Under the pieces are notes generated by a model. It was not told where the DNA came from and made no database searches. It saw only the letters and a program-made list of their open reading frames with translations. From Alteromonadales bacterium alter-6D02 (GTDB lineage: Bacteria > Pseudomonadota > Gammaproteobacteria > Enterobacterales > Psychrobiaceae), in contig PIZK01000006.1 of assembly GCA_002835545.1 (NCBI GenBank), positions 62,001-126,000 of the forward strand: 64,000 nucleotides of DNA. The letters are read 5' to 3'. A program made the translations under genes and the position numbers. How positions within the stretch are numbered: position 1 is the stretch's first letter; every line of letters starts with the position of its first letter. Shown here one piece after another: positions 54,768-58,036 of the stretch.

Positions 54768-54802
54768 AAACCATAGATTACGAATGTAATCTATGGTTTT
54801 TT
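54768..54802 (+). terminator. Terminator after rlmJ
   Basis: Fourteen-bp arms AAACCATAGATTAC / GTAATCTATGGTTT with loop GAAT, then TTTTATT. A smaller stem GGGTTT / AAACCC lies just before it (54740-54757). Confidence 0.92.
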
Positions 54803-54822
54803 ATTACTCGTTATGGTGTTAT

Positions 54823-55509
54823 ATGAAATTATTGCTTGTTCTATTGGTTTTATTTATCAGTGGCTGTAGCCAACGGGTCCATTTAATCAGCCAAGGCTAT
54901 ACCCCTGAGCAGTTATCTCCCATTGTCACCGCGCTCGAAGAGTTAGATTTAGAAGTAAAGCATTCCGATATCCCATTACCAACAAACTTCAGTGACAACA
55001 CGATTATCAGTCATCCTAGCTTAGCCACCAGCAATCAATTAGCTAATATCCAAGAATTGCTTCACAGCCTTGAATTAAGTCCTGTGCAATTGCTCCATTT
55101 CGCTTCAAATCATAAGCATTATTATACTCAGGGTAATATTGGGCTCTACCTACGCCACCCTGAGCATAAGAGTAGGCCTCAACCACCGCTTTACGTCATG
55201 AGTCAATATTGCTCTTCAGGTAATGCGACATTAGGTATGCAGCCTAATGGTCAGTTCTTACTCGAAGTTGAGGTATATGGTGAGAAAAAGTCAATTCATG
55301 CCAGCTCTGGCCAATGGGTGTTTGACGGAGAGAACCTTGTCTTAACCCATTCTCAGAACCAAGTGGCCCACTTTAAAATGCAGCAAAAGACAGTTTCAAC
55401 TTATTTGGGGCCGCGCAGAAGTAAAGTATTCATCCCACAAGAAAACCACAACCTACCGCCAGCGTTTAACTGTGAATTTATCATTATTGATATGAGCTCA
55501 GCCCCTTAA
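54823..55509 (+). CDS. Lipoprotein of unknown function
   Basis: 228 residues from ATG 54823, with lipobox FISGC (Cys15). An upstream in-frame start lies within the rlmJ terminator. The mature part begins SQRVHLISQGYTPEQLSPIVTALEELDLEV, recalling a helix-strand peptidoglycan- or outer-membrane-associated module. A beta-rich C-terminus contains LLEVEVYGEKKSIHASSGQWVFDGENLVLTH. No family is recognised. Its stop shares four bases with the stop of the convergent EAL gene. Confidence 0.75.
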   Translation: MKLLLVLLVLFISGCSQRVHLISQGYTPEQLSPIVTALEELDLEVKHSDIPLPTNFSDNTIISHPSLATSNQLANIQELLHSLELSPVQLLHFASNHKHYYTQGNIGLYLRHPEHKSRPQPPLYVMSQYCSSGNATLGMQPNGQFLLEVEVYGEKKSIHASSGQWVFDGENLVLTHSQNQVAHFKMQQKTVSTYLGPRRSKVFIPQENHNLPPAFNCEFIIIDMSSAP

Positions 55510-57536
55510 CAGCGCGCTTGTTTGGCTGCACTATCGTAAGCCAAAATCTCTTGTTGGGGTAAGGCTTTCTCATATAGCCACCCTTGCGCAACATCGATAC
55601 CTAACTCTTTAACCAATGATAACTCCTCTGCCGTTTCGACACCTTCAGCCACAACGTGATACCGCATGCGACCAAAAATTTTGGCAATCTCCTGATACAG
55701 CAATTTACCTTCAGGTTGTTGTGTTTGCGCTAAAAACTGACGATCGAGTTTAACATGACTCACTGGTAGATTAGCCAACATAAACAAACTCGAATACCCT
55801 GTACCAAAGTCATCAATAACCGTTGTGATCCCGTGTTCTTTCAGCTTTTTAATATGCGTAGAGACTTGTTCTTGTTGATCTAAGTAGCTTGACTCAATGA
55901 TTTCCACCTTAACCTGCTCATTAAAGCCTGCAAATGTTTTACATAAGTGTTCTACCAGATGTGCCTTTGTTAAAACGTCAGGGTTTAAGTTAATACTAAT
56001 TTCGGGAGAAAAGCCCTGCTGATGCCAACACATAAGGTCTTTACTTGCTTGTTCAATCACCCATAAATCAATCAACTCGGTTTGCTTATGTTTAATTAGC
56101 TCGTCTAAAAAATACGGCCCTTTAATCACTCCCTGTGGGTCTTTGATTCTAAGCAGTGCTTCATAGCCACAAACATTACCTGAGGCCAGACATATTTGTG
56201 GCTGATAATATAAAAGTAATTCACCATCACTAATAGCTTGCAGGGCATGCTGTAACGCTTGAGTTGAACGCTTAGATTGCCATTGCTGCTGGATAAACCG
56301 GTGCTCACTACGCGCCATATACTGCTGAGATATATTGAGCTTTTGAGCAAGGGATGAAATAGCCGTCCCAGAGTTTGTTTGATTTGCACTCCAGCGTAGA
56401 AATGGAAAGTAAAGCGCTGCGTTCATAAGAATTAAAGCGCCTTGTAATAGCATCGCATTTGCATCACTCCCTACAAAGTAGCCGTCAATAATTGCAGGAA
56501 CCATCCAACTCATTTCAATCTGTTCATAACCAACCCAACCCCATGAGATCACAGCATAGGAGATTAAAAAATTAAGCGCGGGTGCCAATATGAAAGGGAT
56601 GAATAATATAGGATTCAAGAAAACGGGTAAGGCAAATAAAATAATTTCACAAAAATTAAAGATACTAAACGGGATAGAAAATTTAGCGACGGAGCGCTCA
56701 TGACTATCCTTATTTAGAAAAAGAGCAGCGATAATTAAACCAACAAAACATCCCGTTCCACCGACAATAACAAACGTATCGTAAAATAATTTTGCGCTAA
56801 GCCCGGCAAATATCTCCTGTCCGAGGTAACCACTGTCAAATAATAAATCGAACATGTTATCGCCATGGATACCAACAAACCAAAACAAGTGTACAGTAAG
56901 CATTCGTTCAAAAGTTAATTGAGCCACAGACGAGTTTGCATAATCAGGGCTAAGTGCTTGAGTTAACCAAGCGCCAATCTCATTAATCATTGGCATAATT
57001 AAGAACAAACCAAAGAAAACAAACAAAAATGGAAAGATCAGGGTAAATTTACTTTTTAGAAATTCACTGACACCAGCTACATTATGAATCGCACGCGGTA
57101 CCAACTTTAAAAACCAATTCAACCCAACGCTCGTTAATAGAGGAATAATCACCGCATAAGCGCTCGATCCCGTACTATTAAGTTGGAAGCTACCGCTCTC
57201 AAGTTGCAAATAATGACCATGAACACAAAAACTTAGCGCTGCGAGCATGGCACCAACAGCACCATCATGCATCAAGTTTTTTGAATAATGAAAACCAACA
57301 GAAATCGCGACCATCACTGGAAATAGTAATTGAACGGCAGTGACGCTCTCAATAGCGAGGGTGGCAAGGTAATCATCCGGGCTAAGCACATTAAAGTAGA
57401 GTGCACCGTTGATTAGAATGTTGGCGATACCCAAACTAATAAAATACGGAATAAGCGCAATGAACGCTTCTCTTATCGATAATAAGAGACAAGAGTGGAT
57501 AACTTGTTCAAATAGGCTTTTAAGCTTGTCTATCAA
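55506..57536 (-). CDS. Cellobiose-type PTS EIIC domain fused to an EAL (c-di-GMP phosphodiesterase) domain
   Basis: 676 residues. Residues about 10-375 form a multi-helix membrane domain of the EIIC (lactose/cellobiose) family. It retains the GIHG loop (VGIHGDNMFD) and the conserved glutamate before the pore motif (FNFCEIILFALPVFLNPIL). A linker leads to an EAL domain (about 420-670). EALLR (Glu459), ISINLNP, VEIIESS, VIDDFGTGYSS, VKLDRQF and AEGVETAEE indicate an active phosphodiesterase. EIIB and EIIA are absent. It probably senses, rather than transports, a sugar. The start is TTG 57536; no better start exists nearby. Confidence 0.92.
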   Translation of the reverse strand: MIDKLKSLFEQVIHSCLLLSIREAFIALIPYFISLGIANILINGALYFNVLSPDDYLATLAIESVTAVQLLFPVMVAISVGFHYSKNLMHDGAVGAMLAALSFCVHGHYLQLESGSFQLNSTGSSAYAVIIPLLTSVGLNWFLKLVPRAIHNVAGVSEFLKSKFTLIFPFLFVFFGLFLIMPMINEIGAWLTQALSPDYANSSVAQLTFERMLTVHLFWFVGIHGDNMFDLLFDSGYLGQEIFAGLSAKLFYDTFVIVGGTGCFVGLIIAALFLNKDSHERSVAKFSIPFSIFNFCEIILFALPVFLNPILFIPFILAPALNFLISYAVISWGWVGYEQIEMSWMVPAIIDGYFVGSDANAMLLQGALILMNAALYFPFLRWSANQTNSGTAISSLAQKLNISQQYMARSEHRFIQQQWQSKRSTQALQHALQAISDGELLLYYQPQICLASGNVCGYEALLRIKDPQGVIKGPYFLDELIKHKQTELIDLWVIEQASKDLMCWHQQGFSPEISINLNPDVLTKAHLVEHLCKTFAGFNEQVKVEIIESSYLDQQEQVSTHIKKLKEHGITTVIDDFGTGYSSLFMLANLPVSHVKLDRQFLAQTQQPEGKLLYQEIAKIFGRMRYHVVAEGVETAEELSLVKELGIDVAQGWLYEKALPQQEILAYDSAAKQARC

Positions 57537-57781: not shown

Positions 57782-58036
57782 CTAAATACCTTTTTTTGAA
57801 TATAAAGTCACTTTGTCTGCGACAAACTTAATGTTGATGTTTTTATCAGCATCGCCCCAAGTGCATTGTTTTAAACCAATGGTTTCATCGCACTTGCTTG
57901 CTGTGCCTAATAAGGTCTCAACTTCAGAAAAGTCCATTCCGACTTCAAGTGTATTGTAGTTTTCAGTGGTAATTTTGCTACAACCACTTAAAAGTAAGCT
58001 GGCACTTAATGCTGCTAATAACGTTAATCTTTTCAT
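57782..58036 (-). CDS. Small lipoprotein, DUF3862/BamE-like fold
   Basis: 84 residues, lipobox LLSGC at Cys19. The mature sequence ITTENYNTLEVGMDFSEVETLLGTASKCDE has the helix-turn pattern of SmpA/BamE-like and DUF3862 small lipoproteins, followed by strands (TWGDADKNINIKFV). Two internal cysteines are probably bonded. The role is unknown. It starts 13 bp downstream of hemF, so is likely co-transcribed. Confidence 0.83.
   Translation of the reverse strand: MKRLTLLAALSASLLLSGCSKITTENYNTLEVGMDFSEVETLLGTASKCDETIGLKQCTWGDADKNINIKFVADKVTLYSKKGI

Follow-up and report, generated by a model that had tools for sequence, protein, structure and literature searches.

A 2022 review, in its accessible text, places PTS_EIIC, the sugar-permease domain of the phosphotransferase system (PTS), among the rare input domains of cyclic diguanosine monophosphate (c-di-GMP) proteins and terms it a phosphoreceiver (PMC8846402). 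The proteins concerned combine PTS_EIIC with GGDEF, EAL or HD-GYP in one protein. A link between the PTS and an EAL phosphodiesterase is also described in Vibrio cholerae, where a PTS part controls PdeS (VC1710) in response to sugars (PMC6877527, accessible in part). Here we describe an EIIC-EAL fusion gene at 55506-57536 on the minus strand of a 64,000-nucleotide stretch of contig PIZK01000006.1 from Alteromonadales bacterium alter-6D02 (the window; positions are those of the whole stretch). The domain pair itself is already known from databases and one review; the new point is that a fusion with its sugar contacts persists where no PTS is detected. We consider it fairly probable that the fusion is a PTS-independent membrane receptor, derived from a PTS sugar permease, that controls c-di-GMP breakdown in response to a small-molecule, probably sugar, ligand.

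Our literature search, which covered few subscription papers, found no experiment on the EIIC-EAL architecture and one review naming PTS_EIIC. As far as the sources were accessible, phosphoreceiver is the sole published interpretation that we found for PTS_EIIC in c-di-GMP proteins, and the available parts of three further papers (PMC9392796, PMC2453333 and PMC10513181) have no bearing on this architecture.

The gene joins a diverged cellobiose-type EIIC to an EAL domain

The fusion open reading frame (ORF) is real and intact. It starts with TTG and encodes 676 amino acids, and its start is well bounded because the open frame comprises only 678 codons. A Pfam scan identified PTS_EIIC (PF02378) at residues 22-319 with 57.8 bits (cut-off 30.7) and EAL (PF00563) at residues 432-657 with 188.1 bits (cut-off 31.3), and gave no match to a IIA or IIB domain. 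These results bear out an earlier note, made from the sequence alone, which had read the gene as a sugar-permease EIIC joined to an EAL domain and lacking EIIA and EIIB. The same note had called the EIIC cellobiose-type, and this holds in part: the lactose/cellobiose IIC model TIGR00410 aligns over residues 18-386 and the domain matches the N,N'-diacetylchitobiose permease ChbC, but the 102 bits obtained fall short of the curated cut-offs of 236 (TIGR00410) and 434.45 (TIGR00359). Judged by these scores, the fusion EIIC is best described as a diverged relative of the cellobiose IICs and not as a standard cellobiose permease.

By analogy with IICGlc (PMC11393339, accessible in part) and from our models, we place a scaffold (dimerisation) half at residues ~11-199 (56940-57506). 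The transport, ligand-binding half follows at residues ~200-386 (56379-56939) and is succeeded by a linker at residues 387-432 (56241-56378) and by the EAL phosphodiesterase domain at residues 432-657 (55566-56243), the latter supported by Pfam, conserved residues and fold match; all these features lie on the minus strand.

The EAL half is intact. E459, N516, E548, D575, D576, K596, E631, E634 and Q651, which we take to be the catalytic residues, are identical in 68/68 fusion proteins (the window protein included, one split copy excluded), and the DDFG loop is present in all of them, in line with the earlier statement that all catalytic motifs are there. The best fold match, and closest solved relative, is the EAL domain of BifA (8arv; Z 30.3, 249 residues aligned, root-mean-square deviation (rmsd) 2.3). 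The identity of the nine residues across the fusions argues for an active phosphodiesterase and not a degenerate receptor.

A full-length monomer model (predicted local distance difference test (pLDDT) 86.5, predicted template modelling score (pTM) 0.60) contains one predicted helix, residues 359-437, that runs on from the last membrane segment through the linker and enters the EAL domain. The span from F379 to Q445 is 60-74 residues in all 69 aligned rows (the window gene counted twice) and exactly 67 in 33 of them, so linker length is nearly constant among fusions. The heptad signal for a coiled coil in the linker is weak, and we make no claim of one.

The sugar contacts and the ligand-binding half are preferentially retained

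A profile of nine fusion EIICs searched against PDB sequences matched a single entry, ChbC (3qnq; E 9.9e-61). According to the accessible part of the IICGlc paper (PMC11393339), only E334 and H250 are conserved among the IICChb contacts; the N-terminal scaffold domain dimerises and the transport domain works as an elevator, shifting the site by ~13 Å. Counted along the 3qnq alignment, ChbC H250 corresponds to H224 in the GIHG motif (codon 56865-56867, minus strand) and E334 to E297 in FNFCE (codon 56646-56648, minus strand). The position of E297 is occupied by E in 67/67 other fusions and 16/16 stand-alone EIICs and is invariant though EIIC identity to the window protein drops to 21%. At the position of H224, other fusions have H (45/67) or N (22/67) and stand-alone EIICs likewise H (11/16) or N (5/16), so that both sets make the same two choices. 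In the window's genus and Pseudoalteromonas, 13/13 proteins keep both contacts, H and E. The GG.G and LP..NP...PF motifs are common to ChbC and the fusion EIIC. The earlier assertion that the sugar-binding loop residues are kept therefore stands for H224 and E297, but the second motif reads NFCE instead of the usual NINE, with C found at this place in 14/67 other fusions as well.

Structure comparison of an EIIC-only model (pLDDT 89.6, built from 43 sequences) gave its best matches to solved or modelled PTS IIC chains: ChbC (Z 23.5 over 349 aligned residues, rmsd 10.3), MalT 5iws (Z 17.2 over 325, rmsd 4.0) and, in the inward state, MalT 6bvg (Z 9.1 over 320, rmsd 7.4). Taking 5iws to be the outward state, we read the model, as a prediction only, as outward-like.

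We then compared the two EIIC halves in fusions and in stand-alone EIICs. Mean pairwise identity per site was 0.195 in fusions versus 0.297 in stand-alone EIICs for the scaffold half, and 0.345 versus 0.376 for the transport half. For positions that are fixed in 80% or more of the transporters, mean retention over all fusions was 74% in the transport half (32 sites) and 28% in the scaffold half (18 sites); 16/32 and 1/18 of these transporter-conserved sites, respectively, are kept in at least 90% of fusions. The same calculation gave 65% and 32% when confined to the window's genus and Pseudoalteromonas (13 proteins). Mann-Whitney tests over sites returned p 1.2e-5 for all fusions and 0.008 for the 13, values to be read in the light of sites and sequences that are not independent. 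The higher retention in the transport half indicates that selection constrains the ligand-binding half more strongly than it does the dimer interface.

Selection on the fusions was computed for Pseudoalteromonas and Shewanella. In Pseudoalteromonas pairs, the ratio of nonsynonymous to synonymous substitution rates (dN/dS) was 0.031-0.062 for the transport half (four of seven pairs, the rest being saturated), 0.022-0.137 for the scaffold half (seven pairs) and 0.033-0.042 for the EAL domain (four pairs), with approximate domain limits, pairs that share sequences, and the window's own gene outside this test. The EIIC is thus under strong purifying selection in Pseudoalteromonas.

Enzyme I, HPr and IIB are not found in the window's genus

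We searched nine genomes of the window's genus (G000-G008, six of them at least 90% complete) for PTS components; IIA families lay outside this search. Enzyme I (PF05524), HPr (PF00381) and IIB (PF02302) were each found in 0/9. The same searches detected Enzyme I, HPr and IIB in 7, 7 and 6 of 14 control genomes, E. coli included. Enzyme I was present in 42 of 58 relatives, the nine included, and was missing in 7 of the other 49. In the three genomes of the genus that carry it (G000, G005 and G007, among them the window's own), the fusion is the sole PF02378 protein. Because neither Enzyme I nor HPr was found in any of the nine, the nitrogen-type PTS too appears to be missing in the genus.

Pseudoalteromonas presents a related picture. 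All 11 fusion genomes of this genus (one with a split copy) have a single Enzyme I frame of 758-788 amino acids, and none has a frame of ~575; we take the former to be the size of nitrogen-type PtsP and the latter that of sugar-type PtsI. Both sizes are present in four Shewanella fusion genomes. An Enzyme I of some kind is present in each of 34 additional fusion genomes; in two of these (G608 and G666) the only form has 765-766 residues. The 11 Pseudoalteromonas genomes hold 18 PF02378 matches, comprising 16 fusion-sized frames (674-700 amino acids), one 488-residue frame with a TAG and one 159-residue fragment; ten of the 16 were read, and all ten are EIIC-EAL. To our knowledge Pseudoalteromonas lacks the PTS, although our literature search found no paper on the point.

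PTS phosphotransfer in the window's species is unlikely, since Enzyme I, HPr and IIB are found in 0/9 genomes of its genus and the 11 Pseudoalteromonas genomes have only PtsP-sized Enzyme I. A phosphate-free mode is argued chiefly from the missing components in the window's genus; Pseudoalteromonas lends weaker support. The 0/9 counts make both transport with phosphorylation and a phospho-relay unlikely in the window's genus. They also place the earlier proposal of a membrane receptor controlling c-di-GMP breakdown, which the kept contacts and the intact EAL fit, on firmer ground than the sequence alone had given it.

Distribution and origin of the EIIC-EAL family

An EIIC profile matched 141/394 sampled genomes of the order, many through frames of 430-470 amino acids, the size of an ordinary permease. 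Both domains were read in the DNA of at least 42/394, a lower bound with four candidates scored per genome; the frame of one of them, G434, is interrupted by a TAG. A class sample yielded one other fusion genome in 369 (a lower bound, with few candidates scored per genome), and a phylum sample gave full-length matches above 400 bits in at least 17/398 genomes, six outside the order, where the frames are known by profile score and not by their DNA. We gathered 69 non-identical EIIC-EAL examples, one a split copy. One genome (G563) has four copies and another (G616) three. A locus of a 2.5-Mb genome (L155:7237-14893) has three consecutive, co-directional EIIC-EAL genes with a GAF-GGDEF-EAL gene after them.

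Named holders are Pseudoalteromonas, Shewanella, one marine gammaproteobacterial metagenome-assembled genome (MAG), and plasmids of the alphaproteobacterium Tritonibacter mobilis, whose copies are annotated merely as 'EAL domain-containing protein'. One of the latter (L158:5965-7971) lies on a 147-kb plasmid beside a Fic-family gene, with glycosyltransferases near. The fusion gene from L143 has no E. coli counterpart. No EIIC-GGDEF fusion was seen with our profile, which was built from EAL fusions and is no test of such a pairing.

In the EIIC tree the 16 stand-alone EIICs, a small and score-selected set, group together in a single clade (support 0.949) that contains no fusion. In the EAL tree, built from 68 EALs of fusions and 27 others, the least inclusive clade that contains every fusion (support 0.783) also takes in four of the others, each encoded near a fusion gene. 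The two trees fit one main origin of the fusion. The window protein is sister to 8/10 Pseudoalteromonas proteins in the EIIC tree, and the two other proteins from its own genus (L003 and L004) fall outside both the Shewanella and the Pseudoalteromonas groups, a placement that suggests separate acquisition of the fusion within the genus. The window's copy may accordingly have arrived by transfer, and we do not claim retention through PTS loss. The gene is present in 3/9 genomes of the genus.

Two damaged copies were seen in Pseudoalteromonas, both with intact copies in relatives: in P. prydzensis DSM 14232 (L121:5914-7502) the fusion is broken into two separate frames, and in P. haloplanktis ATCC 14393 (G763, contig 55) a second EIIC match contains one in-frame stop.

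The gene neighbourhood names no sugar

In the window, a convergent ORF at 54793-55509, without a Pfam match, lies downstream of the fusion and overlaps its end by 4 nucleotides. Upstream, on the same strand, a small ORF (57782-58036), likewise without a Pfam match, follows after a gap of 245 bases, and a further ORF there resembles hemF by eye. Farther away, the minus-strand segment 49930-53857 encodes a TgpA-type transglutaminase membrane protein, whose adjoining ORFs resemble a DUF58 protein and a MoxR-type ATPase by eye, and ends near a divergent RsmJ/RlmJ gene.

For the other loci we scanned 109 of 135 listed neighbours together (the first 25 of 130 families), plus 10, plus 2. The scanned neighbours are of many kinds, from housekeeping genes, regulators and chemoreceptors to TonB receptors, phosphatases, two proteins with sulfatase domains and further c-di-GMP genes. 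The neighbour families listed include neither a glycoside hydrolase nor a PTS gene. Domains of sulfatases, of alkaline phosphatases and of TonB receptors are each present in 2/109, and in one locus (L111) TonB receptor, PhoD and sulfatase-like genes come after the fusion; such neighbours can mark polysaccharide or phosphate loci. A chitobiose- or cellobiose-like ligand, as the earlier note had proposed, finds no support in these neighbours, and chitobiose in particular is a guess. Nor do they sustain its picture of a marine polysaccharide degrader, for which no genome search for polysaccharide enzymes was made.

Genes of c-di-GMP turnover recur near the fusion: a GGDEF gene comes after it in L107-L109, GGDEF and EAL genes are on either side of it in L124, and an EAL gene comes after it in L142. 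L143 has a GGDEF-EAL gene, L145 has both MHYT-GGDEF and MASE1-EAL genes, and L155 has the GAF-GGDEF-EAL gene mentioned above. No stand-alone EIIC stands beside the fusion in 36 wider loci except L154, where the fusion itself is called short. Neighbours vary between the species groups of Pseudoalteromonas.

Two candidate links were rejected. A NagA-like amidohydrolase beside the Shewanella genes, next to YfcC, had hinted at a chitin or N-acetylglucosamine context; its score above the TIGR01975 cut-off identifies it as an isoaspartyl peptidase, and the lead was dropped. The only neighbour shared with the window, an RlmJ/RsmJ-type gene in Shewanella aestuarii (L116), is non-adjacent there and was judged chance.

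Some copies lie in ribosomal clusters. In a MAG of the window's genus (L106:5270-9676, the same protein as G007) the fusion sits inside the S10/spc cluster, flanked by the ribosomal L14 and L16 genes and reading in the opposite direction; G005 and L123 look alike by ORF sizes only. In Shewanella sp. Isolate11 (L120:4262-8016) the fusion comes directly after rpoA and the L17 gene, the end of another ribosomal cluster.

Discussion

In the receptor that we propose, the EIIC would dimerise via its scaffold half, and its elevator-type transport half would bind a small molecule, most probably a sugar or a compound resembling one. The last membrane helix is predicted to remain helical on its way into the EAL domain; that domain would occupy the place of IIB in IICB proteins. 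Ligand binding may shift the transport half, and this movement would be passed on to the paired EALs, changing their geometry and thereby switching c-di-GMP hydrolysis. In the window's genus no PTS phosphate would be involved, as our searches detected neither Enzyme I nor HPr nor IIB in it.

Several observations weigh against this reading. Most relatives sit in genomes with a sugar-type Enzyme I, and the scanned neighbours indicate no particular sugar. G124, P157, N243, P298 and P343 are among positions fixed in 16/16 stand-alone EIICs that vary in fusions, so the pocket may bind something else, and the ligand or the gating may differ; the conserved transport-half sites also include structural glycines and prolines besides the contacts. 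Confidence in the linker is low (mean pLDDT 49 for residues 391-400 and 58 for 401-410) in what is a monomer model. The window's copy falls among Pseudoalteromonas copies, apart from the two of its own genus. Finally, the fusion is missing in 6/9 genomes of that genus (three of the six less than 90% complete) and broken in two Pseudoalteromonas, which together mark the gene as dispensable.

This dispensability, together with the lack of a specific sugar context, would suit an EIIC that merely anchors or dimerises the protein and senses no ligand, leaving the EAL domain otherwise controlled or always active. We regard this as unlikely: an anchor should keep the scaffold half, with its dimer interface, and lose the pocket, whereas the reverse is observed, E297 being invariant at EIIC identities down to 21%. 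Most transport-half motifs are kept and the fold matches transporters, as expected if the EIIC also moved unphosphorylated sugar across the membrane and coupled transport to signalling; such a transceptor sits poorly with the diverged scaffold half, and we hold it to be quite unlikely.

We give very little credence to the two remaining possibilities. A phosphoreceiver role, in which phosphate from the PTS is passed to the fusion and controls what it does, as the accessible text of the 2022 review assumes for PTS_EIIC (PMC8846402), would accord with the Enzyme I content of most relatives' genomes and with the known PTS control of a phosphodiesterase by EIIAGlc and PdeS in V. cholerae (PMC6877527, in part). 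However, Enzyme I, HPr and IIB (the search left IIA families aside) are found in none of the nine genomes of the window's genus, and the 11 Pseudoalteromonas genomes have no Enzyme I of sugar-type size. Moreover, the phosphorylated residues of the PTS sit in Enzyme I, HPr, IIA and IIB, not in IIC. The direction of signalling could also be the reverse, with the EAL domain sensing c-di-GMP and gating the permease. EAL proteins that act as receptors do exist, LapD and FimX among them, but these have lost catalytic residues, and here nine are kept in 68/68 fusions.

The sugar-receptor reading, extended from the window's protein to the EIIC-EAL family, becomes more tentative, and we would put it at somewhat below even: the family may consist of PTS-independent sugar receptors that use the elevator motion as a phosphodiesterase switch and that persist, by retention or transfer, in at least two lineages without a detected sugar PTS, the window's genus and Pseudoalteromonas, so that a PTS IIC fold could be kept for sensing alone. 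Many c-di-GMP phosphodiesterases have no known input. The EIIC input domain comes with solved structures and two sugar contacts, and this origin in a transporter family makes ligand and coupling directly testable. Species without a detected PTS offer a clean system, as any EIIC effect there could not stem from PTS phosphorylation.

Compared with the PTS_EIIC proteins of the 2022 review (PMC8846402, in its accessible text), for which a phosphoreceiver role is given and no experiment is described, the fusion described here belongs to a genus without detected Enzyme I, HPr or IIB and has kept its contacts. PdeS differs in being a PAS-EAL protein affected in trans by phosphorylation of EIIAGlc (PMC6877527, in part), whereas the fusion carries its PTS-derived domain in cis, and our searches turned up no source of phosphate for it. 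With ChbC, the N,N'-diacetylchitobiose IIC of the TIGR00410 family, the fusion shares the fold, the equivalents of H250 and E334, and the two glycine- and proline-containing motifs; it differs in its sub-threshold TIGR00410 score, in the EAL domain that replaces IIB, in the IIB, HPr and Enzyme I that were not found, and in its diverged scaffold half. We know of no ligand pocket in MASE1. MASE1-EAL and other membrane-sensor EAL proteins resemble the fusion in having a membrane-embedded N-terminal sensor followed by EAL, and the MASE1-EAL gene near the EIIC-EAL gene in L145 encodes an EAL that groups with the fusion EALs; the difference is that EIIC has a solved ligand pocket.

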